This document shows positions 24,843 to 55,787 of a stretch of DNA of 60,053 bases, one piece after another. This DNA is from an uncultured Agathobacter sp. (lineage in GTDB: Bacteria; Bacillota; Clostridia; Lachnospirales; Lachnospiraceae), in NCBI GenBank assembly GCA_934365945.1, contig CAKRNE010000013.1, positions 1 through 60,053 on the forward strand, given 5' to 3'. Positions within the stretch are counted from its first letter, which is position 1, and each line of letters begins with the position of its first letter. The notes beneath the pieces were generated by a model. That model had not been told where the DNA came from. It saw nothing but the letters and a program-made list of their open reading frames with translations, and did not search any database. A program made the position numbers and the translations under genes.

Positions 24843-24871
24843 ATGACAAAAGTTATATAAAGTTATATAAT
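24843..24871 (+). promoter_or_regulatory. Promoter of the first repeat-array ATPase
   Basis: ATGACA (24843-24848), a 17-bp spacer and TATAAT (24866-24871). The first repeat unit lies in the spacer and the second contains the -10 box. Confidence 0.6.
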
Positions 24872-24938
24872 AAATAAAAAGTTATATAAGGTTATATAAA
24901 CTTATATACGAAACAAAAAGTTATATAAAGTTATATAA
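24851..24938 (+). repeat. Phased direct-repeat array upstream of ATPase 1
   Basis: Units of AGTTATATAA start at 24851, 24861, 24880, 24890 (GGTTATATAA), 24919 and 24929, with a degenerate unit at 24900. Steps are 10, 19, 10, 10, 19 and 10 bp, so all units fall on one face of the helix. The array runs through the promoter to the base before the Shine-Dalgarno (GAGGAG at 24939). An operator for cooperative autoregulation is the simplest reading. Confidence 0.85.
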
Positions 24939-24950
24939 GAGGAGAAGGAA

Positions 24951-25991
24951 ATGCAAAATCCATTTACATTATCATTCGGGAAAAAACCACTGCAATATAT
25001 ATCAAGAATTTCACAGACCAATCAGATAGTAGAGACATTTAGGTCTGAAAATCCCGCAAACCAGCTTTTTATGATAACCGGGGTAAGGGGATCGGGCAAA
25101 ACGGTTATGATGACCAATATTGTATCAGAGATAAAGAAGGATGAGGAATGGCTTACAGTGGAGCTGAACCCTACGAGAGATATGCTTCAGAGCCTTGCAG
25201 CCAAGATTTACAGTATGCCTCAGATGAATAAAATATTTGTCAATGCGAAACTGGATTTTTCAGCGTTTGGTCTGGGAGTTTCCATAGAAAATGCAGCACC
25301 GGTTACAGATATAGAAAATGTGCTGGAATTGATGCTTGAAAATATAAAGAAACATAATAAGCGGTTACTCATTTCAGTTGATGAGGTTACAAACTGTGAA
25401 TTTGTAAAAATATTTGTCAGTTCCTTTCAGATATTTCTGAGGCAGGATTATCCTATTTTTCTGCTTATGACAGGGCTGTTTGAAAATATATATGATTTGC
25501 AGAATGACAAGGCGCTTACATTTTTATACAGGGCACCTAAGATAATGCTTGAGCCACTTAGCTTTACAGCAGTCAGGAAACACTATATGGATATTTTTGA
25601 ACTGGATCAAAGCGCAGCAGACAAAATGGCAGCTCTCACAAAAGGATATCCTTTTGCATTTCAGGTGTTGGGATATCTATATTGGGAAAACAGAGATGAT
25701 CACACGATAGAAGATATTTTACCGGAATATGATCAGTGTCTGGATGAATATGTGTACAGTAAAATCTGGTCAGAACTGTCAGAGCTTGATAAAAAAATAT
25801 TGTCGGAAATATCGGTAAGTGGTGAAGAAAAGGTAAAAGAAATCAGAGAAAAACTGGATATGAATTCAGGATTATTCTCGGTATATAGAGACCGGCTCAA
25901 AAGAAAGGGTGTTATAGATACCTCTGAGTACGGTAAAATTACTCTGACGCTTCCTCGATTTGAAGAATTTGTCAAAACGCGCCAAATGTAA
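24951..25991 (+). CDS. P-loop ATPase with C-terminal winged-helix-like region (paralog 1)
   Basis: 346 residues. Walker A is GVRGSGKT at 44-51 and Walker B LLISVDE at about 139-145. Then come a sensor-like FLLMTGLFENI and FLYRAPKIMLEPLSF, and a C-terminal region (from about KIWSELSELDKKIL to RLKRKGVI) that reads like a winged helix. This is the architecture of the archaeal-ATPase/Cdc6-Orc1-like group common in Lachnospiraceae, of unknown function. It is a near-complete paralog of the 42358 product, and both follow arrays of AGTTATAWAA repeats. A DNA-binding, self-controlling ATPase is inferred. It is not functionally linked to the siroheme or MetY genes around it. Confidence 0.75.
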   Translation: MQNPFTLSFGKKPLQYISRISQTNQIVETFRSENPANQLFMITGVRGSGKTVMMTNIVSEIKKDEEWLTVELNPTRDMLQSLAAKIYSMPQMNKIFVNAKLDFSAFGLGVSIENAAPVTDIENVLELMLENIKKHNKRLLISVDEVTNCEFVKIFVSSFQIFLRQDYPIFLLMTGLFENIYDLQNDKALTFLYRAPKIMLEPLSFTAVRKHYMDIFELDQSAADKMAALTKGYPFAFQVLGYLYWENRDDHTIEDILPEYDQCLDEYVYSKIWSELSELDKKILSEISVSGEEKVKEIREKLDMNSGLFSVYRDRLKRKGVIDTSEYGKITLTLPRFEEFVKTRQM

Positions 25992-35082: not shown

Positions 35083-35157
35083 CGGGGTGTGGCTCAGCTT
35101 GGCTAGAGCGCCTGGTTTGGGACCAGGAGGTCGCAGGTTCGAATCCTGTCACCCCGA
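35083..35157 (+). tRNA. tRNA-Pro (anticodon TGG)
   Basis: The acceptor CGGGGTG pairs with CACCCCG. The anticodon stem CCTGG/CCAGG holds TTTGGGA, giving TGG. Confidence 0.95.
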
Positions 35158-35163
35158 CTACAT

Positions 35164-35234
35164 GCGGGTGTAGTTCAATGGTAGAACACCAGCCTTCCAA
35201 GCTGGATACGTGGGTTCGATTCCCATCACCCGCT
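35164..35234 (+). tRNA. tRNA-Gly (anticodon TCC)
   Basis: The acceptor GCGGGTG pairs with CACCCGC. The anticodon stem CCAGC/GCTGG holds CTTCCAA, giving TCC. Confidence 0.95.
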
Positions 35235-35265
35235 TAGATATTGCAAGATTTGCAGTATCGCATGT

Positions 35266-35339
35266 GTGTCTGTAGCTCAGTTGGATAGAGCACCGGCCTT
35301 CTAAGCCGGGTGTCGGGGGTTCGAATCCCTTCAGGCACA
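35266..35339 (+). tRNA. tRNA-Arg (anticodon TCT)
   Basis: The acceptor GTGTCTG pairs with CAGGCAC. The anticodon stem CCGGC/GCCGG holds CTTCTAA, giving TCT. Confidence 0.95.
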
Positions 35340-35385
35340 TTTCTTATTTCATATTAATTCCATATGGACCATATGAAGTAAATAT

Positions 35386-35460
35386 GGTGGGTATAGCGCA
35401 GTTGGTTAGCGCGCCAGATTGTGGCTCTGGAGGCCCAGGGTTCGAATCCCTGTATCCACC
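35386..35460 (+). tRNA. tRNA-His (anticodon GTG)
   Basis: The acceptor GTGGGTA pairs with TATCCAC, and the extra G at 35386 pairs with C at 35460, the His-specific G-1:C73 pair. The anticodon stem CCAGA/TCTGG holds TTGTGGC, giving GTG. Confidence 0.95.
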
Positions 35461-35527
35461 CTTTGCATTAGTGCAAAAGTGTCGTGCGCATTATATGCGT
35501 ATCCGTGCGGCGCACGAGTATTACTCA

Positions 35528-35599
35528 AGGGCTATCGCCAAGCGGTAAGGCACAGGATTTTGATTCCTGCATTCGTTGGTTCGAATCCAACTAGCCCTG
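35528..35599 (+). tRNA. tRNA-Gln (anticodon TTG)
   Basis: The acceptor AGGGCTA pairs with TAGCCCT. The anticodon stem CAGGA/TCCTG holds TTTTGAT, giving TTG. Confidence 0.95.
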
Positions 35600-35617
35600 T
35601 TACAATCTAATAGATAT

Positions 35618-35690
35618 GGGATATTAGCTCAGGTGGTAGAGCACTTGACTTTTAATCAAGTTGTCCGGGGTTCGAATCCCCGATGTCTCA
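35618..35690 (+). tRNA. tRNA-Lys (anticodon TTT)
   Basis: The acceptor GGGATAT pairs with ATGTCTC (two G:T pairs). The anticodon stem CTTGA/TCAAG holds CTTTTAA, giving TTT. Confidence 0.95.
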
Positions 35691-42256: not shown

Positions 42257-42285
42257 TTGACAAATAAGTTATAAAGAGTTATAAA
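42257..42285 (+). promoter_or_regulatory. Promoter of the second repeat-array ATPase
   Basis: TTGACA (42257-42262), a 17-bp spacer and TATAAA (42280-42285). As at 24843, the first repeat unit is in the spacer and the second holds the -10 box. Confidence 0.65.
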
Positions 42286-42344
42286 AAGATTACAAGGTTA
42301 TAAAGAGTTATAAAAATTATTAAAAGTTATAAAGAGTTATAAAA
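42267..42344 (+). repeat. Phased direct-repeat array upstream of ATPase 2
   Basis: Units of AGTTATAAAG or AGTTATAAAA start at 42267, 42277, 42296 (GGTTATAAAG), 42306, 42325 and 42335. The steps are 10, 19, 10, 19 and 10 bp: three pairs on a 29-bp period. The last unit ends one base before the region leading into the Shine-Dalgarno CAGGAG. The 10/19 step pattern is that of the 24851 array, but the unit has AAAG/AAAA where that one has TATAA. Confidence 0.87.
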
Positions 42345-42357
42345 CAGGAGTGCAGAG

Positions 42358-43389
42358 ATGAAAAAAAATCCCTTTTCATTATCATTTGGCAAGGAACCGG
42401 TCAGTTTAATTAACCGTAATGTCCAGTCATATGAGATAATTGATACCTTTGAAGATGAAAACCCTGCTTACCAGGTGTGTATGATTACAGGAGTCAGAGG
42501 CTCAGGGAAGACTGTAATGCTCACAGAAATCAATAAAACTTTTAGGGCAGAGGAAGACTGGATTGTTATCGATCTGAGCCCTGAACGTGATTTATTACAA
42601 TCATTTGCTGCAAATCTGAGCAATTATCCAAGTTTGTCAGAGGTTTTTCGTGAAGCTAAAATAAATCTGTCATTTTTAGGGCTGGGCGTTGAAATAGAAG
42701 GTGTTTCTCCAATTACCGATTTAAATGTGGCAGTGACGAGGATGCTTGAAAAGATTAAAAAGAAGCATAAGAGAGTTCTTGTGACAATAGACGAGGCTGT
42801 ATGTAATGATACAATGAAAGAGTTTGTCAGCCTGTTTCAGATATATATGAGACAGGATCTTCCGGTATTTTTGCTCATGACAGGTCTTTATGAGAATATT
42901 TATGAGCTTCAGAATGAAAAAACGCTCACATTTTTGTACAGGGCACCCAAAATTGAGCTTCGTCCGTTGAATATAGGCATGATAGCTGAAAAATACAAGT
43001 CTATTTTTGAATTGACAGATGAGGAAGCCACAGAGATGGCTAAAGAGACAAGGGGATATCCGTTTGCCTTTCAGGTGCTGGGGTATCTTTGTTTTAAGCA
43101 TAATACAGGATGGCATAATGTATTACCAGAATTCAGTCAGTATCTGGAGGAATATGTATACGAAAAGATATGGAGTGAACTGTCAAAAGGTGATAAGGAA
43201 TTGTTGATTGCTATGGCAAAAACCAATGACACCAAAGTGGAAGCAATACGAAAGACTATAAAAAAGGCATCAAACAGTTTCAGTGTATACAGGAACAGGC
43301 TTATAAAAAAGGGTTTGATTATTTCACCGGAGTATGGACATTTGGAGTTCGCACTCCCAAGGTTCAAAGAATTCGTGTTGTGTAGATAA
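42358..43389 (+). CDS. P-loop ATPase with C-terminal winged-helix-like region (paralog 2)
   Basis: 343 residues, aligning along its whole length with the 24951 product. Shared stretches include NPF.LSFG, ITGVRGSGKTVM (Walker A at 45-52), Walker B RVLVTIDE at about 139-146, FLLMTGL.ENIY.LQN, FLYRAPKI, GYPFAFQVLGYL and EYVY.KIWSEL. The C-terminal part resembles a winged helix. It stands alone between fbp and a sugar operon, with its own promoter array and terminator, so it looks like a self-contained unit. Function unknown; the fold points to ATP-driven DNA or protein remodelling. Confidence 0.75.
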   Translation: MKKNPFSLSFGKEPVSLINRNVQSYEIIDTFEDENPAYQVCMITGVRGSGKTVMLTEINKTFRAEEDWIVIDLSPERDLLQSFAANLSNYPSLSEVFREAKINLSFLGLGVEIEGVSPITDLNVAVTRMLEKIKKKHKRVLVTIDEAVCNDTMKEFVSLFQIYMRQDLPVFLLMTGLYENIYELQNEKTLTFLYRAPKIELRPLNIGMIAEKYKSIFELTDEEATEMAKETRGYPFAFQVLGYLCFKHNTGWHNVLPEFSQYLEEYVYEKIWSELSKGDKELLIAMAKTNDTKVEAIRKTIKKASNSFSVYRNRLIKKGLIISPEYGHLEFALPRFKEFVLCR

Positions 43390-43395
43390 TTATTG

Positions 43396-43427
43396 CACTG
43401 TCGGGATATAACCGGCAGTGTTTTTTT
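43396..43427 (+). terminator. Terminator after ATPase 2
   Basis: A 9-bp stem (43396-43404 with 43412-43420) is followed by seven T residues. Confidence 0.87.
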
Positions 43428-43451
43428 GTAAATGATTCAATCTAAATCTGT

Positions 43452-43523
43452 GTAAAAAATTACATAAAAAGTAATAAATTACAAAAATACGTATATAAAC
43501 CTACAAAACGTAAAACTATTTAC
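43452..43523. promoter_or_regulatory. Three GTAA-TTAC palindromes before the alpha-glucoside operon
   Basis: GTAAAAAATTAC (43452-43463), GTAATAAATTAC (43471-43482) and GTAAAACTATTTAC (43510-43523). Centres are 19 and 40 bp apart, that is two and four helical turns. The last overlaps the -35 box. These are candidate operators for the RpiR regulators encoded at 47124 and 47833. Confidence 0.5.
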
Positions 43524-43547
43524 ATTGCTGTGTGCATTGGTTATAGT
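43519..43547 (+). promoter_or_regulatory. Promoter of the 6-phospho-alpha-glucosidase/PTS operon
   Basis: TTTACA (43519-43524), a 17-bp spacer and TATAGT (43542-43547). Confidence 0.65.
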
Positions 43548-43624
43548 ATGTGTGTAAATAAGAAACGCAAATAAATCCGGCCGGATATATTGCAATAAAT
43601 AGAATGAGAAAAGGAGATACTATC

Positions 43625-44950
43625 ATGAAAAAGTATAACGTATGTATTGTAGGTGGAGGAAGCACATATACACTTGGATTTTTAAAATCATTTGCACGTA
43701 TGCAGGAGGAATTCCCATTAAATAAGCTCGTATTATTCGATATTGACGGCGAGAGACAAAAGCCAATCGGACAGTATGGAGACATTATGTTTGCAGAGAG
43801 ATATCCTGAGCTTGATTTCTCTTACACAACAGATCCAAAGGAAGCTTATCAGGATATGGATTTCATCTTTATGCAGATGCGTGCCGGTGGACTTCATATG
43901 CGTCAGAAGGATGAGCATATTCCACTCAGCTTTGGCAAGGTAGGACAGGAGACATGCGGAGCAGGCGGAATGGCATACGGACTTCGTTCATGCGTAGACA
44001 TGATTGAGGCTGTTCACCAGATTCGTGAGTACTCACCGGAGGCGTGGATACTTAACTACTCTAACCCAGCTGCAATCGTTGCAGAGGCACTCAGAAGAGA
44101 GTTCCCTGATGATAAGAGAATCCTCAATATCTGTGACCAGCCTGAGAACGTAGTTCGTTCAACAAGCCGTCTGTTAGGCTGCGACTGGGGTGATCTTGAT
44201 CCTGTATACTTCGGTTTGAACCATTATGGATGGTTTACACATATGTATGACCGCAAGACAGGAGAGGATTTACTTCCAAAGATTCGTCAGATTGTAAAGG
44301 AAAAAGGCTTCCTTCCACAGGATGCAGAGCAGCGTGACCAGTCATGGCTCGATACATATGGCTTTGTACAGACAATGATGGAGGATTTCCCGGATTACCT
44401 TCCTAATACATATGACGGATATTACCTGTACCCTGAGTACAAGACAAGCCATTTAAATCCTGAATATACACGTGCGGATGAGGTAATTGCAGGCCGTGAG
44501 ACTCGTGTATTTAAAGAGGCTGCTGAGGTAATTAAAGCAGGAAAGCTCGGAGACAAATTCCATGCAATATCAGATGCCCATGCAGAGATGATGATTAAGG
44601 TTGCAGAGGCTATTGCATTCAATACATTAGGACGTTTCATCCTTATCGTTGAAAACAATGGTGCTATTGCAAACATGCAGGATGATGCAATGGTTGAGGT
44701 AGTTTGTGAGCTTGGTATCAACGGACCACGTCCTATGAGCGTTGGAAACATTCCACAGTTCTATCTTGGACTTCTTGTACAGCAGGTTTCAAGCGAGAAG
44801 CTTCTCGTAGACGCATATTATGAGCATTCTTATCAGAAAGCACTTGAGGCATTCACACTTAACCGTCTTATCAATGACGCTAAGGTTGCAAGAAAGATTC
44901 TTGATGCCCTCATTGAGGCAAACAAAGGAATGTGGCCTGAATTAAAATAA
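43625..44950 (+). CDS. GH4 6-phospho-alpha-glucosidase
   Basis: 441 residues from the ATG after AAAAGGAGATACTATC; an earlier ATG at 43604 overlaps that site. It begins with the NAD-binding NVCIVGGGSTYTLGF and has VGQETCGAGGMAYG, LNYSNPAAIVAEA, the metal-site NICDQP and NHYGWFT. GH4 enzymes use NAD+ and Mn2+ in a redox mechanism. Overall likeness to GlvA/MalH points to maltose-6'-phosphate and related alpha-glucoside phosphates made by the PTS gene that follows after 42 bases. Confidence 0.9.
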   Translation: MKKYNVCIVGGGSTYTLGFLKSFARMQEEFPLNKLVLFDIDGERQKPIGQYGDIMFAERYPELDFSYTTDPKEAYQDMDFIFMQMRAGGLHMRQKDEHIPLSFGKVGQETCGAGGMAYGLRSCVDMIEAVHQIREYSPEAWILNYSNPAAIVAEALRREFPDDKRILNICDQPENVVRSTSRLLGCDWGDLDPVYFGLNHYGWFTHMYDRKTGEDLLPKIRQIVKEKGFLPQDAEQRDQSWLDTYGFVQTMMEDFPDYLPNTYDGYYLYPEYKTSHLNPEYTRADEVIAGRETRVFKEAAEVIKAGKLGDKFHAISDAHAEMMIKVAEAIAFNTLGRFILIVENNGAIANMQDDAMVEVVCELGINGPRPMSVGNIPQFYLGLLVQQVSSEKLLVDAYYEHSYQKALEAFTLNRLINDAKVARKILDALIEANKGMWPELK

Positions 44951-44992
44951 TGTATTGCGTGAAAAACTTTAGGATAGGGATGGGTAAAATAT

Positions 44993-47035
44993 ATGAAAAG
45001 TAAAATAATGAAGTTCTTCTCCGATTTAGGAAGAAGTCTTATGATGCCGGTCGCTGCACTTGCAGCGTGTGGTATCATACTGGGAATCACATCTGCACTG
45101 CTTAAAACGCAGGTGCAGGATGCGGTACCATTTCTGACTGCATCGGTACCGCTGTTTATCATAACAACACTTAATAAGGTATCGGGCATTGTATTTACTC
45201 TTTTGCCGGTTCTGTTTGCTATTTCTATAGCATTTGGTCTGGCTAAAGAGGATAAGGGAGTTGCAGCATTTGCCGGTTTTATCGGATATGACACATTTCT
45301 GGTTGCCAGCAGCTGTATGATATCAACAGGAATAATGGATTTCAGTGCCCTTAAAATATCAAATATTCTTGGCGTGGATACTGTTGATATGGGTGCCCTT
45401 GCCGGAATACTGGCCGGTCTTGTGACAGCAAAGTTGCATAACAAGTATCATAAGGTACAGTTCCCTGCAGCAATAGCATTTTATGGTGGCAAGCGATTTG
45501 TTGCCCTTGTTGTTCTTGTTTCAATGACAGTAATAGGACTTGTGATGCCTCTTATCTGGGCGCCGATTTCTGTTGGAATCGACGGACTTGGAAGAGTTAT
45601 CCGTTCATCAGGTGCGTTTGGAGTATTTATCTTTGGTACACTGGAGAGATTGCTGATTCCTACAGGTCTTCACCATGTACTCAACTCATTGTTCAGAACC
45701 ACAGCAATTGGTGGTACATACCATGGAGTAGAGGGCTGTCTGAATATTTTCTTACAGTTTTTGGATCAGGCACCTCTTTCTGATATGAAGCCATATACAC
45801 AGTTTTTAGGACAGGGAAAGATGCCTTATATGCTGTTTGGTCTTCCTGCAGCAGCGCTTGCTATTTACCGTACAACACCTCAGGATAAGAAGGCAAAGGT
45901 AAAGGCACTCATGATTGCCGGCGTGGCAGCATGCTTTGTTTCAGGGATTACAGAGCCGCTTGAGTTCTCATTTATGTTTATTGCACCGGCATTATTTGTT
46001 TTCCATGCAATCATGGGTGGTATTTCATTCATGCTCATGTCAGTGCTTGGAGTAATCGTTGGTAATACAGGTGGTGGATTTATAGACTTCCTGCTCTGGG
46101 GAGTATTCCAGCCGGGCTCACACTGGTACTGGGTAATAGTTGTCGGAATACCATATGCATTTATTTACTATTTTGTATTCAAATGGTATCTGTCAAGAAA
46201 GAAGATTGTAGTCAGCGTATCAGATGATGATGATGATGATTCTGATGCCGAGGCTGATGGAAAGACAAATGAAGGCAAAAAGTCAGGCTCTAATAAGACT
46301 GCATTGCAGGTTATTGCAGGACTTGGCGGAATGGCTAATATCGTAGTTGTAAACAACTGTATTTCAAGACTGCGTGTTGATGTAAAGGATATGTCACTTA
46401 TCGATGAGGAAATACTTAAGAAAACAGGCTCACTCGGTATTGTAAAGACAAGTGATACACACATTCAGGTAGTTTACGGACCAAAGGTTGAGAAAATAGC
46501 TGATGCTGTGCGCGCAGCGCTAAATGATAAGGACTGCGCAGCCGAGGTGGAAAAGGTACAGGAGGAGAAGCCGAAGAGTACGGTTATTATTTCAAGCCCT
46601 ATGACAGGCTTATCTGAGGACTTGTCAAAAGCTCCGGATGAGGCCTTTGCAAATAAGCTGATGGGTGATGGCGCGGTTATAACACCGAAAGACGGTACGG
46701 TTGTTGCTCCAGATGACGGAACGGTTTTATTCGTATTCGATAAAAAGCATGCGATAGGCTTTGCAACCGATTCAGGCGTCAGCATGATAATTCACGTAGG
46801 TATTGACACTGTCAAGCTCGATGGAAAGGGCTTTGATGTGAAGGTGGAAACAGGTGCACATGTAAATAAGGGCGATGTGCTTATGCAGCTTGACCTGGAT
46901 TTCCTCAGGGAAAATGCACCGTCTATAGCATCTCCTGTCATTTGTACGGAGCTCAAGGAAAATCAGAGCATCAGGCTTATTAACGAAGGCGAAATCAAAG
47001 CAGGAGAACCGCTGTTTGCCGTTGATACATACTAA
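44993..47035 (+). CDS. Alpha-glucoside PTS permease, fused EIICBA
   Basis: 680 residues in the order IIC (about 1-400, ten or so membrane helices, with LIPTGLHHVLN and GITEPLEFSFMFIAP), an acidic linker (SDDDDDDSDAEADG near 410), IIB with Cys456 (NNCISRLRVDV), then IIA of the glucose type with the phosphorylated His near 601 (IIHVGIDTVKLDGKGF). It imports and phosphorylates an alpha-glucoside such as maltose or trehalose-like sugars. It forms one operon with the GH4 gene before it. Confidence 0.92.
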   Translation: MKSKIMKFFSDLGRSLMMPVAALAACGIILGITSALLKTQVQDAVPFLTASVPLFIITTLNKVSGIVFTLLPVLFAISIAFGLAKEDKGVAAFAGFIGYDTFLVASSCMISTGIMDFSALKISNILGVDTVDMGALAGILAGLVTAKLHNKYHKVQFPAAIAFYGGKRFVALVVLVSMTVIGLVMPLIWAPISVGIDGLGRVIRSSGAFGVFIFGTLERLLIPTGLHHVLNSLFRTTAIGGTYHGVEGCLNIFLQFLDQAPLSDMKPYTQFLGQGKMPYMLFGLPAAALAIYRTTPQDKKAKVKALMIAGVAACFVSGITEPLEFSFMFIAPALFVFHAIMGGISFMLMSVLGVIVGNTGGGFIDFLLWGVFQPGSHWYWVIVVGIPYAFIYYFVFKWYLSRKKIVVSVSDDDDDDSDAEADGKTNEGKKSGSNKTALQVIAGLGGMANIVVVNNCISRLRVDVKDMSLIDEEILKKTGSLGIVKTSDTHIQVVYGPKVEKIADAVRAALNDKDCAAEVEKVQEEKPKSTVIISSPMTGLSEDLSKAPDEAFANKLMGDGAVITPKDGTVVAPDDGTVLFVFDKKHAIGFATDSGVSMIIHVGIDTVKLDGKGFDVKVETGAHVNKGDVLMQLDLDFLRENAPSIASPVICTELKENQSIRLINEGEIKAGEPLFAVDTY

Positions 47036-47071
47036 AAATTAAAAGCAGATATAACATTAAAAGCTAAATGA

Positions 47072-47109
47072 AAAGAGCAGGAAAATTGCAAATGATTTTC
47101 CTGCTCTTT
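47072..47109. terminator. Bidirectional terminator between the PTS gene and the RpiR genes
   Basis: AAAGAGCAGGAAAAT pairs with its complement over 15 bp around an 8-base loop, serving two converging transcripts. Confidence 0.85.
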
Positions 47110-47123
47110 ATTAAAAGAAAAGC

Positions 47124-47855
47124 TTATTTTTGAGTTAAAATATATTCGATAACAATCTGAACAAATACAAAAGCTGTCATTTTAGTGCGCAGATGCGTAT
47201 TTTCAGATGGAAGCTCGGGTGCAGTAATGCAGATGTCATCTGCTGCCAGAAGCGAGGTGTCAATATCGACGCTTGAAATCCATATGATTTTTACATTCTT
47301 TTTATGGCAGCGCCTGGCGATAGGCTCATATATTTCCTTTTCTCCGTAATTAGTAAACAAAATCAGTGTTGCATTTTCGGGAAAAGAGACTGATATTGCT
47401 AAAAGAAAGTCAATCCAGTCAATATATATGCATGGAATATCTATCGCATTGAAATTGGAGTACAAATATCTGGCGGGTAGAGAGGAAAGACCGCGACCAT
47501 ATATATAAAGGGAGTCGCTTTGAGTTACCTCCTTGCAGATGGTTTCAAGCTGCCCTGAATCAAGTCCGTCGATAAAATCCTTAAGTATGGAGGTATGATG
47601 CTGCATAACGCTCCAAGTGGAAAATCCGGTTGATTCTCTTGAGGCCTTTCTCAGGGAGTATTTTAGTTCGTTGAAGCCGTTGAATCCGATTTTCTGGCAG
47701 AATCTGACTATTGTAGCATTTGAGATAAATAAATCCTTACATATGTCATTTAGAGACATATATGGAAGGCTCTTTTCATGGTCTATAAAATACTCAAGTA
47801 TGAGAAGCTCATTTTCCGAGAAGTCTGTGCTATCAATCTGATGCAGAAGGTTCAT
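47124..47855 (-). CDS. MurR/RpiR-family regulator (second of pair)
   Basis: 243 residues. An N-terminal RpiR helix-turn-helix (about 25-60, LNDICKDLFISNATIVRFCQKIGFNGFNELK) precedes a SIS sugar-phosphate-binding domain (YIYGRGLSSLPARYL...). Family members bind sugar phosphates and repress or activate sugar operons. Its start lies 23 bases inside the upstream paralog, with AAAGGAGATAACAGCA as ribosome site. It converges on the PTS operon. Confidence 0.88.
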   Translation of the reverse strand: MNLLHQIDSTDFSENELLILEYFIDHEKSLPYMSLNDICKDLFISNATIVRFCQKIGFNGFNELKYSLRKASRESTGFSTWSVMQHHTSILKDFIDGLDSGQLETICKEVTQSDSLYIYGRGLSSLPARYLYSNFNAIDIPCIYIDWIDFLLAISVSFPENATLILFTNYGEKEIYEPIARRCHKKNVKIIWISSVDIDTSLLAADDICITAPELPSENTHLRTKMTAFVFVQIVIEYILTQK

Positions 47856-48627
47856 TGCTGTTATCTCCTTTCCTTTGCAGGTTGAAATACTCCATGAAGG
47901 AGCTTATTACAAAGAAGGAGCCAAGACGTGAGGTGAAATCAGCGCCTTCATATTCACGGGGCTTTGAAAAAAACCTGAGATTATAATCAGATACTTCAGC
48001 CAGGTCATTATTTTCTATGGATGAGATTGAGATTACAATCATGCCATGCAATCGGGCTTCCTTAGCCAGATTTAAGGTGGGCTCAAAGCGTCCTGAATTG
48101 CTTATAAAAACAAAAACATTTCCTTTATCCACGGTCTGTATAAAGTGGTGTGCGGCCTTGGCGGCAGTTGTTTTGTATATTTTCTGACATCCTGATAAAA
48201 AAAGCATGCTTTCCAGATAGCTGACTGCAATGTCTGTAAGTCCTGCCGGACTGTGCAGGTAAATAGGCCGGTTTTCTGAAAAAAGCCTTGCAATATGAAA
48301 CATGTCATCTGAATTGAGCAGGCTCACAGTGCTGTCCATTGAGTCTTTGATAGTATTCTTGATTATATCAAGTGATTTATCAGAGCCTTTGACCATGATT
48401 TTGTCCTCATTATCAGAGCTTTTAAGGAAATATTTAAACTCCGAAAAGCCACTGAAGCCAAGCTTCCTGCAGAAGCGAAGTATCGTTGAGGTGGAATAGT
48501 TAAGCTCTTTGGCAAACTGCTGGATGCTGATAGATGAAATGTCATCTGAATGATCATGTACATATTGCAGTATATCAAGCTCCTTGGTTGAAAGGGACTG
48601 CAAAGGAATGTTGAGGTTCAACTTCAA
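47833..48627 (-). CDS. MurR/RpiR-family regulator (first of pair)
   Basis: About 264 residues with the RpiR helix-turn-helix (IQQFAKELNYSTSTILRFCRKLGFSGFSEFKYFL) and a SIS domain. A GTG at 48636 touches the ribosome site GGGAGG, so the TTG at 48627 with a 9-base spacing is preferred. It is a paralog of the overlapping gene downstream. Two regulators of one family in an operon may form mixed oligomers or read two sugar phosphates. Confidence 0.85.
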   Translation of the reverse strand: MKLNLNIPLQSLSTKELDILQYVHDHSDDISSISIQQFAKELNYSTSTILRFCRKLGFSGFSEFKYFLKSSDNEDKIMVKGSDKSLDIIKNTIKDSMDSTVSLLNSDDMFHIARLFSENRPIYLHSPAGLTDIAVSYLESMLFLSGCQKIYKTTAAKAAHHFIQTVDKGNVFVFISNSGRFEPTLNLAKEARLHGMIVISISSIENNDLAEVSDYNLRFFSKPREYEGADFTSRLGSFFVISSFMEYFNLQRKGDNSNEPSASD

Positions 48628-48792
48628 AATAAGCACCCTCCCTTCTTGGCATTACACATTTTATTTATAGACTATGATAACATCCGAAGTACCAAATGTA
48701 AAATAAAAGTGAATCTATAAGATTTAAATAGAAGATTGAAATAGAATATTTACAGTGGTAAAATCTACACATGAAATGAAAAGGAGCAGCAT

Positions 48793-49512
48793 ATGCCATA
48801 CAACTATGAAAAAGTAAATCAAAAGCTGCTGGTTCCGCAGATTGAGGATCAGCTTGTAATGTATATACAGCATGAGAATATTGAGATTGGAGCAAAGCTT
48901 CCCAGCGAGTACAAGCTGGCTGAGATATTCGGAGTGGGCAGGAGTACGATAAGGGAGGCTGTAAAGAGCCTTGTCACTAAGGGGATGCTTGAGGTGAAGA
49001 GAGGCTCCGGCACATTTGTGAAGTCCACGGAGATAGTGGTTGATGATCCGCTTGGCTTAGCACAGTTTGAGGACAAGTATCGTCTGGCGATGGAGCTTTT
49101 TGAGGTGAGGATGCTGCTTGAGCCGGATGTGGCGGCAACGGCATGCCAGAAGGCAACAGAAGAGGACAAAGAGCGTATAAAGAGCCTTTGCGATGAAGTG
49201 GAGCAGATGTATATGTCTGGACAGAACCATATAAAAAAGGATATGGAGTTTCATGAGACGATAGCCAGATGCAGTGGAAACCGGGTGGTTGAGGTACTGA
49301 TTCCGGTTATTTTGACTGCCATCACGACATTTGCAAATCTGACACACAGAAAGCTGCTTAATGAGACAATTGAGACACACCGGGCAATAACCGATGCTAT
49401 TTTAAGGGGAGACAGCATGGGGGCAAAGTGTGCCATGATAATGCATCTTACATACAACAGACAGACTATTATAGACATGTCAGAGCAAAATAAAACTTGT
49501 CAGACAAGTTAG
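48793..49512 (+). CDS. FCD-domain GntR-family regulator
   Basis: 239 residues. The GntR winged helix is at about 15-75 (LPSEYKLAEIFGVGRSTIREAVKSLVTKGMLEVKRGSGTFV). The C-terminal ~145 form the helical FCD effector domain (MELFEVRMLLEPDVAATAC..., with His in MEFHETIARCSGN). Such regulators repress sugar-acid genes until gluconate or a related acid binds. AAAGGAGCAGCAT precedes the ATG. It reads toward the gluconate genes, which it probably controls; a palindrome matching the FadR-subfamily consensus overlaps its own stop codon. Confidence 0.9.
   Translation: MPYNYEKVNQKLLVPQIEDQLVMYIQHENIEIGAKLPSEYKLAEIFGVGRSTIREAVKSLVTKGMLEVKRGSGTFVKSTEIVVDDPLGLAQFEDKYRLAMELFEVRMLLEPDVAATACQKATEEDKERIKSLCDEVEQMYMSGQNHIKKDMEFHETIARCSGNRVVEVLIPVILTAITTFANLTHRKLLNETIETHRAITDAILRGDSMGAKCAMIMHLTYNRQTIIDMSEQNKTCQTS
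49494..49510. promoter_or_regulatory. GntR-type palindrome at the end of the regulator gene
   Basis: AACTTGTCAGACAAGTT is a perfect 17-bp palindrome and contains TTGTCAGACAA, a fit to the FadR-subfamily operator pattern TNGTNNNACNA. It lies in the last codons of the regulator gene, 115 bp before the permease -35 box. Confidence 0.5.
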
Positions 49513-49550
49513 CCTAAACTCACTGCGAGAATTAAATAAAATATACTAAA

Positions 49551-49586
49551 AACCAGTCATGTTAAACAGACATGGCTGGTTTTTTT
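49551..49586 (+). terminator. Terminator of the GntR gene
   Basis: An 11-bp stem AACCAGTCATG/CATGGCTGGTT is followed by a run of T residues. Confidence 0.88.
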
Positions 49587-49624
49587 GTTACTTTTGTGGA
49601 AAAAACTTGTAGATTTGAAACAAC

Positions 49625-49653
49625 TTGATATGAAGTGTTGATGATTATATACT
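49625..49653 (+). promoter_or_regulatory. Promoter of the gluconate operon
   Basis: TTGATA (49625-49630), a 17-bp spacer and TATACT (49648-49653). Confidence 0.7.
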
Positions 49654-49661
49654 TTAGATAG

Positions 49662-49683
49662 ATACAAAAGACGTCTGATGTAT
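49662..49683. promoter_or_regulatory. Imperfect palindrome at the start of the gluconate transcript
   Basis: ATACA, two bases, AGACGTCT, two bases, TGTAT: 18 of 22 positions are symmetric. It lies 8-30 bases after the -10 box, at the expected start of transcription, the position of a repressor site. Confidence 0.5.
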
Positions 49684-49727
49684 GTAGGGAACAACGTATA
49701 ACAATTTAATGTATGGAGGAAGAAAAA

Positions 49728-51083
49728 ATGAGTGAAGCAGCGACATTAGATCCAACCCGATTGGTGATAGCCGCGATAATAGGATTAGCTCTGTTATTAG
49801 TTTTAATTATCAAATTCAAGGTTCATGCAATGATTTCAATATTGCTTGGAGCGATAGCAATCGGTGTTGTGGCAGGTATGCCCCTTACTGAGATTGTAAC
49901 AGCGGTAAATGATGGTATCAGTAATACCTTAAAGGGTATAGCACTGCTTGTAGGACTGGGCTCCATGTTTGGAGCGATACTTGAAGCGTCAGGCGGAGCA
50001 CAGACACTTGCCGTTACCATGGTGAAAAAGTTTGGCGACGAAAAAGCCGCATGGGCACTTGGAGTAACCGGTTTAATTATAGCAATGCCGGTATTCTTTG
50101 ACGCAGGACTTATTATCCTGATACCGCTTGCATTCTCGCTTGCAAAGAGAACAAAGCGTTCCACACTGTTCTATGCAATACCTCTTTTAGCAGGACTTGC
50201 AGTCGGACATGCATTTATCCCACCTACACCGGGTCCTGTACTTGTAGCAACAATGCTCAATGTGGATTTGGGATGGGTAATCCTTGTCGGTATAGCCTGC
50301 GGAACAGTTGCAATGATTATTGCAGGACCTGTATGGGGCTCAATTTGTGGAAAGAAATACATGGTTCCGGTTCCGGAGCATGTAGCAAACCAGGAGGACA
50401 TAGATGAGACTAAGCTTCCTAAATTTGGCACAATTGTACTCATCATAGCAATTCCGCTTGTGCTTATCATTTTCAAGTCACTCGCAGGTGTTATCCCTGC
50501 ACTGGCACCGGTAGCACCGGTATTTACATTCCTTGGGGAGCCGTTTGTGGCACTGCTTATTGCAACAATCGTGGCAATGCTTGTGCTTGGAAAGAGACAT
50601 GGCTACAGCATGGAGGAGCTTGAAAAAATCATGACAAAGTCTCTCGAGCCGACAGGACTTATCTTACTTGTAACAGCCTGTGGTGGAGTGCTCAGATATG
50701 TATTGCAGTACTCAGGACTTGGAGATTTGATTGGAAATGCAGTTTCATCTGCTAATTTACCAATAGTGCTTGTAGCTTTTATTGTAGCTGCACTTGTTCG
50801 AATCTGTGTTGGTTCAGCAACAGTTGCAATGACCATGGCAGCAGGAATCATAGCTGCAATGCCTGGAATATCAGAGCTGTCACCGCTGTATCTGGCATGT
50901 GTTGTCGCAGCAGTAGCAGGAGGCTCAACAGTATGCTCACATTTCAACGATTCAGGCTTCTGGCTTGTTAAATCACTTATTGGTGTGGATGAGAAAACAA
51001 ATCTGAAAACATGGACGATCATGGAGACACTGGTTGGCTTCAGTGGATTTGTAGTAGCGTTTATTATTTCATTATTCGTATAG
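49728..51083 (+). CDS. gntP: Gluconate:H+ symporter, GntP family
   Basis: 451 residues from the ATG after GGAGGAAGAAAAA; an ATG at 49713 overlaps the ribosome site. There are about 12-14 membrane segments. Family motifs visible are GMPLTEIVTAVNDGI, GHAFIPPTPGPV, CGGVLRYVLQYSG and STVCSHFNDSGFWLVK. It takes up gluconate or a related sugar acid, feeding the dehydratase next to it (16 bases apart). Confidence 0.92.
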   Translation: MSEAATLDPTRLVIAAIIGLALLLVLIIKFKVHAMISILLGAIAIGVVAGMPLTEIVTAVNDGISNTLKGIALLVGLGSMFGAILEASGGAQTLAVTMVKKFGDEKAAWALGVTGLIIAMPVFFDAGLIILIPLAFSLAKRTKRSTLFYAIPLLAGLAVGHAFIPPTPGPVLVATMLNVDLGWVILVGIACGTVAMIIAGPVWGSICGKKYMVPVPEHVANQEDIDETKLPKFGTIVLIIAIPLVLIIFKSLAGVIPALAPVAPVFTFLGEPFVALLIATIVAMLVLGKRHGYSMEELEKIMTKSLEPTGLILLVTACGGVLRYVLQYSGLGDLIGNAVSSANLPIVLVAFIVAALVRICVGSATVAMTMAAGIIAAMPGISELSPLYLACVVAAVAGGSTVCSHFNDSGFWLVKSLIGVDEKTNLKTWTIMETLVGFSGFVVAFIISLFV

Positions 51084-51099
51084 AAAGAAGGACAAAGAT

Positions 51100-52884
51100 A
51101 TGCTTAGAAGTGAAGAAGTAAGAAAACTTGCACCTGAGATGGATCCGCTCAGAATGGGTATGGGCTGGAAGGTCAGTGACTTGTCCAAGCCACAGGTAAT
51201 GATTGAAAGCACATACGGAGACAGCCATCCGGGCTCAGCTCACCTGAACAAATTTGTAGAGGAGGCTGTAAAGGCCGTGGATGAAAACGGCGGAAAAGCA
51301 GCCAGATATTATGCAACAGATATGTGTGATGGAATCGCACAGGGACATGACGGAATCAACTATTCACTGGCACACCGCGATGCCATCACCAATCTTGTTG
51401 AGGCACAGGCCAATGCAACAGTATTTGACGGTGGAGTGTTTATCGCAAGCTGTGACAAGGCAATGCCTGCAATGCTCATGAGTATAGGAAGACTCAAGGA
51501 TATGAGTGCGATCATGGTGACAGGCGGAGTCATGGAAGCACATGAGCTGCCAAAGAAATATATCGTAGACGATCCTGCCTGCAAGATTAACGAGCTTCTG
51601 ACGCTTGAGCAGATTGGTAAATTTGATGCATGGGAGAAAACCGGTGTCATCCCTAACGAGCAGTTGGATTATTACAAGCACAATGCATGTCCAAGCTGTG
51701 GAGCCTGCTCATTCATGGGAACAGCATCAACAATGCAGATTATGGCAGAGGCACTTGGACTTATGCTTCCGGGTACTGCACTCATGCCATCTACAGCACC
51801 TGAGCTTAAGGAGGCTTCATACAATGCAGGAAAGCAGCTCATGGAGCTCATAGCAAAGGACATCACAGCAAAGGATATTGTGACAAAGGAAAGCTTTGAG
51901 AATGCAATCATGGTTCATGCGGCTATCTCAGGTTCTACAAATGCAACTATGCATTTACCTGCAATCGCACATGAGTTTGGCATTCAGATAGATGCGGATA
52001 CATTTGACAGACTGCACAGAGGTGCGCACTATCTGCTCAATATTCGTCCTTCAGGAGACTGGCCTGCACAGTACTTCTACTATGCAGGAGGCGTGCCTAG
52101 AGTGATGGAGGAGATAAAGAGCATGCTCCATCTTGATGTGATGACAGTCACAGGAAAGACGCTCGGTGAGAACTTAGAGGAGCTTAAAAAGAACGGCTTC
52201 TACGAGCACTGTGACGAGATACTCCGTGAGAAGTCAAAGCTTTTTGGAAGAGCAATTGACAGAGAGGATATCATCCATTCCTTTGACAATGCCAAGGGAA
52301 CAGACGGAAGTATTGCAATCCTTAAAGGAAATCTGGCACCTGAGGGCTGCGTAATAAAACATACAGCATGTCCTAAGGAGATGTTTAAGGCAGTGCTTAA
52401 CGCTAAGCCGTATGACAGCGAGGAGGCATGTATCAGTGCCGTATTAAATGGGGAGGTAAAGCCGGGAGATGCCGTATTTATCAGATACGAGGGTCCAAGA
52501 GGCAGTGGAATGCCTGAGATGTTCTACACAGGCGAGGCAATCTGCGCAGATCCAAAGCTTGCTTCAAGCGTGGCTCTCATCACCGACGGAAGATTCTCCG
52601 GTGCATCAAGAGGACCGGTTATCGGACACGTATCACCAGAGGCAGCGGCAGGCGGACCAATCGCATTTGTCGAAGAGGGAGATTTGATCGAGCTTGATGT
52701 GGAAAACAGAAAAATCGCAATTGTAGGAATAAAGGGCGAGAGAAAGACTCCAAAGGAGATTGATGCTGTTTTAGCAGACAGAAAGGCACGCTGGAAGGGC
52801 TTTAAGAGTAAATACCAGCATGGACTTTTAAAGCTCTATGCGCAGCATGCGGTAAGCTCTATGAAGGGTGCTTACATGGATTAA
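51100..52884 (+). CDS. IlvD/Edd-family sugar-acid dehydratase
   Basis: 594 residues. The Fe-S cysteines are in MCDG, SCDKAMPAM and CPSCGACSFMG. It also shares the IlvD/Edd C-terminal GPRGSGMPEMFY and LITDGRFSGASRG. The family dehydrates 2,3-diols. Members include Edd, IlvD and several aldonate dehydratases. Between a gluconate permease and a KDG kinase, dehydration of unphosphorylated gluconate (or a galactonate/xylonate-like acid) to the 2-keto-3-deoxy acid is the best reading. Branched-chain amino acid synthesis is unlikely from the context. Confidence 0.88.
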   Translation: MLRSEEVRKLAPEMDPLRMGMGWKVSDLSKPQVMIESTYGDSHPGSAHLNKFVEEAVKAVDENGGKAARYYATDMCDGIAQGHDGINYSLAHRDAITNLVEAQANATVFDGGVFIASCDKAMPAMLMSIGRLKDMSAIMVTGGVMEAHELPKKYIVDDPACKINELLTLEQIGKFDAWEKTGVIPNEQLDYYKHNACPSCGACSFMGTASTMQIMAEALGLMLPGTALMPSTAPELKEASYNAGKQLMELIAKDITAKDIVTKESFENAIMVHAAISGSTNATMHLPAIAHEFGIQIDADTFDRLHRGAHYLLNIRPSGDWPAQYFYYAGGVPRVMEEIKSMLHLDVMTVTGKTLGENLEELKKNGFYEHCDEILREKSKLFGRAIDREDIIHSFDNAKGTDGSIAILKGNLAPEGCVIKHTACPKEMFKAVLNAKPYDSEEACISAVLNGEVKPGDAVFIRYEGPRGSGMPEMFYTGEAICADPKLASSVALITDGRFSGASRGPVIGHVSPEAAAGGPIAFVEEGDLIELDVENRKIAIVGIKGERKTPKEIDAVLADRKARWKGFKSKYQHGLLKLYAQHAVSSMKGAYMD

Positions 52885-52932
52885 TACCTGTTGATTTGAT
52901 TTTACGATATTTGGATACAGAAAGGAATTATT

Positions 52933-53571
52933 ATGAATACAATTATTGAGAAATTAAAAGAAATGCTTGTTGTACCTGTAGTGGTACTTGATGATGTAAA
53001 GGATGCAGAAAAGCTTGCAGATGCTCTTGTAGGTGGAGGACTTCCTTGTGCTGAGGTAACCTTCAGAACCGCTGCTGCAGAGGAATCAATCCGCATTATG
53101 ACAGAGAAATATCCTGATATGCTTGTAGGAGCAGGAACAGTTCTTACAACAGAGCAGGTGGACAAGGCAGTTGCAGCAGGCGCGAAGTTCATAGTAAGCC
53201 CGGGCTTTGATGCAGAAATTGTTGACTACTGTCTGGATAAAAATATCCCGATTTTACCTGGTGTAATCTCACCTTCAGAGGCTGCACAGGCTGTAAAGAG
53301 AGGTCTTAGCGTGGTTAAATTCTTCCCGGCTGAGCAGTATGGCGGAGTGACTACAATCAAGGCTCTTGCAGCACCATATACTATGCTTAAGTTCATGCCT
53401 ACAGGTGGTGTGAGTGTGAAGAACTTAAAGGATTACTTAAGCTGTGACAAGATTATCTGCTGTGGCGGAAGCTGGATGGTAAAGGGCGATATGATAAAGG
53501 CCGGAGAGTTTGACAAGATAAAGCAGATGACAAAGGAAGCAGTAGAGCTTGCACACAGTATCAGAGAGTAA
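52933..53571 (+). CDS. eda: 2-keto-3-deoxy-6-phosphogluconate aldolase (KDPG/KHG aldolase)
   Basis: 212 residues, a class I aldolase. The Schiff-base lysine is in VVKFFPAEQYGG, and the catalytic Glu in AEVTFRT. Other family parts are VGAGTVLT, FIVSPGF and FMPTGGVS. It splits KDPG into pyruvate and glyceraldehyde 3-phosphate. It follows the dehydratase by 48 bases and precedes the kinase by 16. Confidence 0.93.
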   Translation: MNTIIEKLKEMLVVPVVVLDDVKDAEKLADALVGGGLPCAEVTFRTAAAEESIRIMTEKYPDMLVGAGTVLTTEQVDKAVAAGAKFIVSPGFDAEIVDYCLDKNIPILPGVISPSEAAQAVKRGLSVVKFFPAEQYGGVTTIKALAAPYTMLKFMPTGGVSVKNLKDYLSCDKIICCGGSWMVKGDMIKAGEFDKIKQMTKEAVELAHSIRE

Positions 53572-53587
53572 AGGAGAGTATAAAACC

Positions 53588-54685
53588 ATGAACCTTAATT
53601 TAAAGCCAAAGAGTGAATGTAAATATGATGCAGTTTCATTAGGAGAGGTAATGCTTCGTCTGGATCCGGGCGAGGGAAGAATCAGAACAGCAAGATCCTT
53701 CAGAGCATGGGAAGGCGGCGGAGAGTACAATGTAGTCCGTGGTTTGAGAAAGTGCTTTAAGATGAACACAGGTGTCATCACAGCATTCGCTGACAATGAG
53801 ATAGGAAAGCTCATGGAGGATTTCATCTGTCAGGGGGGTGTGGATACATCCCTCATCAAGTGGATGAAGACAGACGGAATCGGCCGTGTATGCAGAAACG
53901 GTATCAACTTTACTGAGAGAGGCTTCGGTATCCGTGGTGCAGTCGGATGCTCTGACAGAGCAAATACTGCTATTTCAAAGGCCACACCGGAGGATTTTGA
54001 TTTCGATTACATCTTTGGTGAGCTTGGAGTCAGATGGCTTCATACAGGCGGTATCTATGCAGCAATCTCTGAGCAGACCTGTGAGACAGTGCTTGCAGCA
54101 ATAAAGACAGCAAAGAAATACGGAACAATTGTATCCTACGACTTAAACTACCGTCCTTCAATGTGGAGCGCAATCGGTGGACAGGCAAAGGCACAGGAGG
54201 TCAACAAGGAAATCGCTAAATATGTTGACGTAATGATCGGAAACGAAGAGGATTTCACAGCATGCCTTGGCTTTGAGATTGAAGGAAACGATGCAAATCT
54301 TAAGGAATTAAACCTTGACGGATATAAGAAGATGATTAATGAGGCAGCAAAGGCTTATCCTAACTTTAAGGCAGTAGCAACAACACTGCGTACAGTAAAG
54401 ACAGCCACAGTCAATGACTGGAGCGCAATCTGCTGGGCAGATGGAGAGGTTTACAAGGCAAAGGATTACAACGGACTTGAGATTATGGACAGAGTCGGCG
54501 GTGGAGATTCCTTCGCATCAGGACTCATCTACGGACTGATGACAACAGAGGATGCCGAGACTGCAGTAAACTATGGTGCAGCTCATGGTGCACTTGCCAT
54601 GACAACACCGGGTGATACAACTATGGTAAGCGTCAACGAGGTTGAGGCTATCATGGGTGGCGCAGGCGCCAGAGTTCAGAGATAG
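53588..54685 (+). CDS. kdgK: 2-keto-3-deoxygluconate kinase (PfkB family)
   Basis: 365 residues from the ATG after AAAGGAGAGTATAAAACC. PfkB features are SLGEVMLRLDPGEGRIRTARSF, the substrate loop EGGGEYNVVRGL, and the C-terminal DRVGGGDSFASGLIYG with the catalytic Asp. It phosphorylates the deoxyketo acid to KDPG for the aldolase just upstream, completing a semi-phosphorylative Entner-Doudoroff branch. Confidence 0.9.
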   Translation: MNLNLKPKSECKYDAVSLGEVMLRLDPGEGRIRTARSFRAWEGGGEYNVVRGLRKCFKMNTGVITAFADNEIGKLMEDFICQGGVDTSLIKWMKTDGIGRVCRNGINFTERGFGIRGAVGCSDRANTAISKATPEDFDFDYIFGELGVRWLHTGGIYAAISEQTCETVLAAIKTAKKYGTIVSYDLNYRPSMWSAIGGQAKAQEVNKEIAKYVDVMIGNEEDFTACLGFEIEGNDANLKELNLDGYKKMINEAAKAYPNFKAVATTLRTVKTATVNDWSAICWADGEVYKAKDYNGLEIMDRVGGGDSFASGLIYGLMTTEDAETAVNYGAAHGALAMTTPGDTTMVSVNEVEAIMGGAGARVQR

Positions 54686-54709
54686 GATATCGTAAAAAGG
54701 AGGCAGGGT

Positions 54710-55762: not shown

Positions 55763-55787
55763 ATAAACTAAAATATGATTAAAGAGT

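Follow-up and report, generated by a model that had tools for sequence, protein, structure and literature searches.

The 60,053-nucleotide stretch of an uncultured Agathobacter genome analysed here (the window) carries two paralogous genes, referred to as ATPase 1 and ATPase 2, and an array of short direct repeats lies directly upstream of each. Array 1, before ATPase 1, consists of seven AGTTATATAA-type units at steps of 10/19/10/10/19/10 bp, where a unit starts at the first A of AGTTATATAA and the unit at 24900 is the variant AACTTATATA. The unit starts and steps given in a preliminary description of this region are reproduced exactly in the sequence, which also bears out its statement that the repeats extend from the promoter spacer (17 bp, between the ATGACA and TATAAT hexamers) through the -10 box, which lies within unit 2, to the Shine-Dalgarno sequence. 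Array 2, which is absent from that description, has six GTTATAAA units at steps of 10/19/10/19/10 bp directly 5' of ATPase 2, and a scan of both strands of the window for chains of at least four units returned these two arrays only. Judging from the comparison of unit letters with protein residues set out below, the ATPase protein very probably binds the array in its own promoter.

A chance origin of the arrays was considered and rejected on the basis of shuffle tests. The longest chain of like 8-mers in array 1 (steps of 10, 19 or 20 bp) has seven members. Shuffling that 103-bp segment 1000 times with dinucleotides preserved yielded a mean of 1.70 and a maximum of 4, with none reaching seven; the test was also applied to array 2.

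Arrays of this kind are a regular feature of the near family. Among 80 loci from one homolog search (where an array is a chain of at least four units no more than 400 bp upstream) an array was found in 76, and the four misses comprise a contig edge leaving 68 bp of upstream DNA (L034), an imperfect array (L054), three units (L093) and an array separated from its ATPase gene by a transposase gene (L103). Set 2 consists of 90 genes picked from a second homolog search and subjected to a similar chain test, which 79 pass; among the 11 misses, inspection by eye shows units spaced at 10 and 11 bp in L141 and L145. Homologs lacking upstream repeats, which the preliminary description had named as evidence that would count against its proposal, are therefore not what the near family presents. 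When one 200-bp test was applied throughout, 75 of 79 regions upstream of ATPase genes passed, versus 14 of 267 regions upstream of neighbouring genes; of these 14, two lie before other ATPase paralogs, 11 belong to minus-strand upstream neighbours that adjoin the array of the ATPase, and the last is an AACAG microsatellite. The near-identical units within one array could be taken as a sign of functionless tandem-repeat expansion by slippage. However, the bases between unit clusters vary while the units and their spacing are kept, and the arrays stand at a fixed promoter place of one gene family and, as the neighbour-gene test shows, are rare before other genes, so that we find slippage scarcely credible.

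The spacing of the units is also distinctive. In a scan without preset spacing, 474 of 561 steps between like 8-mers (91 genes) were 10, 19 or 20 bp, and a spacing-aware finder assigned 924 of 970 steps in 167 arrays to the same classes, partly by construction. Counting a step near 10 as one place and a step near 19 or 20 as two places, we obtained a lattice of 9.74 bp per place (standard deviation 0.12; 156 arrays) with a median largest residual of 0.30 bp, a tightness that comes in part from the finder and the assignment. Sites on the lattice are skipped, giving layouts such as 2-2-2 and 2-3-2, and the number of units per array ranges from 4 to 18. Because a lattice of about 9.7 bp precesses by roughly 26 degrees per place at 10.5 bp per turn, the units cannot all lie on one face of the helix; in array 1 the rotation amounts, by arithmetic, to about 200 degrees across 78 bp. 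The earlier statement that all units share one helix face thus holds for neighbouring units and fails for the array as a whole. A precessing lattice would suit a helical protein assembly.

With regard to the promoter, the family consensus is of the sigma-A type: a -35 element is followed by a 17-bp spacer that holds unit 1, and TANAAT lies in unit 2. Of the 150 arrays (out of 167) that have a first step of 10, 92 have TTG at a distance of 8 or 9 nt 5' of unit 1, and the last -10 position in unit 2 is T (64%) instead of the A (82%) seen at the equivalent place after unit 1. The two window arrays fit this geometry loosely, the hexamer that precedes unit 1 being ATGACA at 8 nt in array 1 and TTGACA at 10 nt in array 2. 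At the other end, the distance from the end of the last unit to the start codon has a median of 15 nt. Across the family, then, the arrangement of -35, unit 1 and -10 places the putative operator over the gene's own promoter.

Our reasoning as to which protein reads the units is based on their letters, which vary widely by gene (GTTATATA, GTTATAAA, GATATAAA, GTTATAGA, ACAGTAAA, GTATAAA, TTATGAA, GTTGTGGAA and others). In the 89 genes of a first set (set 1) the partial correlation with unit distance was 0.39 for the winged helix of the ATPase versus 0.09 for the rest of the protein, and in 141 genes the values were 0.315 versus 0.120. Within the winged helix the signal comes from helix 306-318 (0.275) and the wing (0.308), with 30-residue blocks elsewhere at 0.145 or less. 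A column scan returned residue 327 as the top column for unit position 2; in 87 of 88 set-1 genes the base at this position is G or C where residue 327 is Tyr, and A or T where it is not. Of the 79 array-bearing set-2 genes, 68 share less than 70% identity with any set-1 gene, and thinning reduced these to 64 held-out genes. Of the 64, 61 agree with the rule (Fisher 1.6e-14), the exceptions being L117, a register error by eye, L130 and L161. Dependent evolution of residue 327 and position 2 was favored over independent evolution with a likelihood ratio (LR) of 81.5 (p 8e-17; best tree, residues 1-270, 130 genes). A second pairing, N310 with G at unit position 5, is seen in 54 of 64 held-out genes (LR 22.5). 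The ATPase-domain columns P168, T174 and G175 also rank high in single-column scans without tree control, which we take to reflect shared ancestry. When a partner was chosen for each of 141 genes, it had the same unit in 55 cases if chosen by the 12 recognition residues and in 59 if chosen by the whole winged helix, compared to 48 for the ATPase domain and 7 for random choice, a modest gain. On this comparative evidence, the specificity of the protein appears to match its operator. The earlier suggestion that the adjoining ATPase is the reader of the repeats thus gains strong comparative support, in that the units vary in step with its recognition helix and wing, and little with its other parts; such covariation between repeat letters and putative DNA-reading residues suggests a self-controlling switch.

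It could be argued that the repeats are read by another protein, such as a global regulator or a sigma factor, or are simply curved AT-rich promoter DNA, given that the units are AT-rich and -10-like (TANAA) and that phased A-tracts can bend DNA. However, the unit letters differ between genes of one genome and track the ATPase's own winged-helix residues, and curvature would not prefer TTATAGA in one gene and ACAGTAAA in another. The units of L084 are GTTATGAA but the unit carrying its -10 box is GTTATAAAAT, and the unit letters are therefore not set by the -10 box alone. We consider another reader, or curvature, very improbable.

The arrays are also private within the genomes where this was examined. 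Genome G016 has a 99%-identical ATPase 1 on a single contig of 3,449,685 bp, and its location is thus chromosomal. In this genome, pairs of ATPase 1 units with at most one mismatch occur only before that gene. Equally private are the unit of ATPase 2, whose array survives although the gene is truncated, and that of a third copy, ACAGTAAA. In G348, unit pairs with at most one mismatch occur only at the gene's promoter; in G363 this is true of exact pairs, with one further one-mismatch site elsewhere. No regulon of tandem sites was visible for these five arrays in G016, G363 and G348 (a search limited to pairs, leaving aside single units and the fourth G016 copy, L011). As no genome checked holds the array a second time, the ATPase would address its own gene only. 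The data show no additional insulation between paralogs: 1 of 63 within-genome pairs shares a unit versus 1.07 expected from between-genome pairs of equal protein identity, a count that excludes L142-L143 and L176-L177 (over 90% identity, both sharing a unit) and L155 (too few units). At L061:1913-5035 and L073:2681-5038 there are two ATPase paralogs per locus, each behind its own distinct array.

The AlphaFold2 model of ATPase 1 (mean predicted local distance difference test score, pLDDT, 91.5) contains both the P-loop ATPase and the winged-helix-like C-terminus that had been predicted from the sequence. The winged-helix domain has helices at 278-290, 295-302 and 306-318, with residue 327 in the wing loop; a nucleotide-binding domain (NBD), a lid and the winged helix fill the 346-residue model, which has no sensor or effector domain. 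The whole-length fold resembles the archaeal PF01637 proteins Sso1545 (2FNA) and PABY2304 (2QEN), and the STAND-type NBD-lid-winged-helix core is present, the fold matching NRC4, RPP1, CED-4 and APAF-1. ATPase 1 scores 31.7 bits against Pfam PF01637 (ATPase_2; gathering cut-off 33.2), and PF01637 is in the precomputed list for P0001, a 99%-identical ATPase 1 homolog, and for nearly all other homologs shown from that search, which comprises 5012 in total. An Orc1/Cdc6-like ATPase had been proposed, and at the level of fold this stands, since the top Foldseek match is 2qby (Orc1/Cdc6; E 7.6e-12); as a statement of closest kinship it does not, the archaeal ATPases and NLR/STAND proteins being as near or nearer and the score against NCBIfam TIGR02928 (Orc1/Cdc6) being 12.9 bits, below the cut-off of 181.3. 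NCBIfam, PADLOC and PHROGs gave weak or partial P-loop or helix-turn-helix matches only (best E 1.4e-6), and profile searches against PDB sequences gave no match at E 0.01 with one profile and none better than 0.028 with another.

A plausible scenario explaining these data is that each array serves as operator for the ATPase gene directly 3' of it. Recognition helix 306-318 would contact the core of the 10-bp unit, and unit position 2 would be contacted by wing residue 327, with neighbouring protomers filling successive sites of the ~9.7-bp lattice, probably side by side through their P-loop domains. Protein bound at units 1 and 2 would lie over the promoter spacer and the -10 box, and the units further 3' would carry the complex through the 5' untranslated region to the Shine-Dalgarno sequence, such that the ATPase represses its own transcription. 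We put the probability of this working model, in which the ATPase binds its own promoter along the lattice through its winged helix, covers the -10 box and is thereby autorepressed, at roughly 80%; physical binding, its cooperativity and ATP dependence, and repression as the sign of regulation are parts of it that we infer. The array might instead act as an activating or assembly platform, on which protomers are templated by DNA into an ATP-dependent oligomer (compare DnaA, MalT and the NLRs), the oligomer being the output and the promoter overlap serving to report its state. We regard this as doubtful: repression is favored because the array overlaps the -10 box, no effector domain is present in the 346 residues, and the number of units varies as widely as described above. 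The features that make up the two loci are listed in Table 1.

Table 1. Positions in the window of the arrays, promoter elements, ATPase genes and putative DNA-reading parts of ATPase 1.
Feature	Position	Strand	Basis
-35-like hexamer ATGACA, ATPase 1 promoter	24843..24848	+	Sequence; family has a TTGACA-like hexamer at the equivalent place just 5' of unit 1
Array 1, seven AGTTATATAA-type units starting at 24851, 24861, 24880, 24890, 24900, 24919 and 24929	24849..24938	+	Sequence; Tandem Repeats Finder (extent); shuffle test
-10 hexamer TATAAT, inside and just beyond unit 2	24866..24871	+	Sequence; family geometry
Shine-Dalgarno AGGAG, ATPase 1	24940..24944	+	Sequence
ATPase 1, 346 amino acids; P-loop NTPase domain, lid, C-terminal winged helix	24951..25991	+	Model (mean pLDDT 91.5); fold search; dN/dS
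Putative DNA-reading winged-helix domain of ATPase 1, codons 275-346	25773..25988	+	Model helices and wing; covariation with units
Predicted recognition helix of ATPase 1, codons 306-318	25866..25904	+	Model; covariation
Codon 327 (Tyr) of ATPase 1, wing loop	25929..25931	+	Model; covaries with unit position 2
-35 hexamer TTGACA, ATPase 2 promoter	42257..42262	+	Sequence
Array 2, six GTTATAAA units starting at 42268, 42278, 42297, 42307, 42326 and 42336	42266..42344	+	Tandem Repeats Finder; sequence; shuffle test
-10 hexamer TATAAA, within unit 2 of array 2	42280..42285	+	Sequence
ATPase 2, 343 amino acids; paralog of ATPase 1, 51% identity	42358..43389	+	Sequence comparison

Several observations weigh against the autorepression model, and some concern the covariation itself: (i) the 327 rule as first noted, with 'G only', holds in 53 of 64 held-out genes (p 1.6e-7), the 'G or C' form having been chosen after set 2 was listed; (ii) the tree behind the LR of 81.5 is poorly supported in depth, and its well-supported branches provide 5 independent pairs, of which a mean of 3.5 change the same way and 0 the opposite way, which is not significant; (iii) the five next-best columns gave LR values of 4.7-16.0, two of them below p 0.05 (F216, 0.003; Y193, 0.046); and (iv) three further set-1 rules, T306 with position 3, L308 with position 8 and T/S311 with position 8, failed in the held-out set. 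The L308 pairing has a tree-test p of 0.0025 despite its failure out of sample. K/R311 occurs with G at position 7 in 59 of 64 genes, but this rule was devised after seeing set 2 and its tree test was not significant (p 0.13). The distribution of arrays is also incomplete at the edges of the family. L198 and L199, two of the 11 set-2 misses and the most distant members scanned, have no array upstream. Of 9 plasmid homologs, a single one passes the chain test (four or more units); in some others of the nine, two or three repeats spaced at 9-10 bp can be made out by eye.

The pattern of selection raises a further difficulty. The ratio of nonsynonymous to synonymous substitution rates (dN/dS) is 0.031 for ATPase 1 versus L001 and 0.057 for ATPase 2 versus L002; other close pairs gave 0.072, 0.075 and 0.193, with one saturated, and the neighbouring Cys/Met enzyme gene gave 0.008. 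In G001, ATPase 1 has been lost through a ragged deletion, with unit 1 and the final 27 bp of the gene still in place (L200), and G016 (L012) differs from the window by a deletion of ~13 kb (window 42481-55773) that starts at codon 41 of ATPase 2 and leaves array 2 intact without its gene. Given these deletions, both genes are dispensable in the strains concerned; the ATPase genes are thus under constraint (purifying selection) yet dispensable. A purely self-repressing protein would hardly be kept under such selection, and a further ATPase activity is therefore likely and would be what selection maintains. The window genes absent from G016 include those encoding a family 4 glycosidase, a phosphotransferase system transporter, a GntP permease, a KDPG-type aldolase and a PfkB kinase.

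The ATPase family is centred on the Lachnospiraceae. Matches at E <= 1e-3 were found in 134 of 396 Lachnospiraceae genomes, with a best E <= 1e-20 in 62 among the matches listed, and in a phylum-wide sample of 398 genomes the four with matches at E <= 1e-20 were all Lachnospiraceae. There are, in addition, members in Bacilli (L077, L103) and 78 plasmid records with distant relatives, every one below 60% identity. This distribution, which is patchy with up to 6 matches per genome, some of them partial, could be indicative of a selfish, replicon-like module, in which an iteron- or centromere-type array accompanies a Rep- or ParR-like protein on the chromosome; the autoregulatory direct repeats beside one gene, the plasmid relatives and the members in Bacilli would fit such a module. 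The likeness to iterons and Rep that had been pointed out does hold for the architecture. It does not extend to membership, as the location is chromosomal and no Rep initiator family is among the best 25 of 30 Pfam matches of ATPase 1 (E up to 1). Moreover, the G001 empty site is a deletion in which unit 1 and the gene's 3' end survive, no neighbour family occurs in more than 8 of the 77 loci with neighbours available (neighbours were not searched by domain), meaning that no recurrent partner gene was seen, and none of 24 matches in a pattern-based scan of viral contigs was a relative. A search of phages gave one partial match only. We consider a selfish module improbable. A mobile cassette was likewise rejected, the only empty site read closely (that of G001) being a deletion scar and not a clean excision.

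How does the autoregulatory arrangement that we favor compare to known systems? We know of no assigned DNA site for the solved archaeal PF01637 proteins, Sso1545 and PABY2304, whereas in the present family each gene has a private array. MalT has a separate LuxR-like DNA-binding domain and controls other genes. IniR is reported to have a separate LuxR-like DNA-binding domain as well and to control other genes (PMC5760070). In contrast to these two, the present proteins appear to read DNA with the winged helix itself and the gene's own promoter appears to be the target, and unlike STAND/NB-ARC ATPases in general (NLRs, CED-4, APAF-1, MalT, IniR) the present ATPases lack a sensor or effector domain. 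There is precedent for a winged helix reading repeats near its own gene in the Orc1/Cdc6 proteins of archaeal origins. The present ATPases share with Orc1/Cdc6 the fold seen in the Foldseek search, but fall far below the TIGR02928 cut-off, occur as several unlike copies per genome and are dispensable. In plasmid iteron-Rep and ParR-parC systems, direct repeats of about one to two helical turns lie over the promoter of the binding protein. Direct repeats overlapping the promoter of a putative binder are common to those systems and to the present family, which differs in being chromosomal and in its unrelated fold, its skipped-lattice layout and a wide unit divergence that follows a residue code.

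ATPases of the archaeal and STAND-like types that carry a bare winged helix are widespread. To our knowledge, no DNA targets have been assigned to them; in this family, the likely target of each ATPase could be read from the sequence before its gene. Among the papers listed by literature searches, none describes these arrays as judged by title or abstract start. A broader proposal, which we advance tentatively and with somewhat less than even confidence, is that this is a large undescribed family of self-addressed Orc/STAND-like ATPases, whose products would assemble as ATP-dependent filaments on their own lattices (about 9.7 bp per protomer) and whose specificity would diversify by a two-part code (recognition helix and residue 327) into many private protein-DNA pairs. 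The family would offer a natural series of ATPase-operator pairs for work on a residue-base code, on ATP-driven filament formation and on the persistence of a self-only regulator. It may also supply many distinct repressor-operator pairs for laboratory use and an annotation rule for 'ATP-binding protein' genes in gut Lachnospiraceae.

There are also minor observations on individual loci. An Rfam scan of 23000-44000 in the window found nothing beyond six tRNA genes, which are clustered at 35083-35690. In 11 loci of L030-L109 (e.g. L058, L068, L086) an opposite-strand upstream neighbour shares the array region and might be co-regulated. At L103:2987-3992 (Streptococcus sobrinus) a DDE transposase gene (Pfam) separates the array from an intact ATPase gene. 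Two distant plasmid homologs that are ~25% identical, L233 and L237, have three CTATAAA-type repeats with 9-10 bp spacing before the start codon. One similar gene, putatively a sugar transferase, lies 3' of the ATPase in eight loci (L062, L064, L065, L069, L070, L072, L075 and L079), and the homolog on plasmid pNP95 (L230) is flanked by an annotated O-antigen ligase on one side and a glycosyltransferase on the other; a connection with surface polysaccharide genes is possible.
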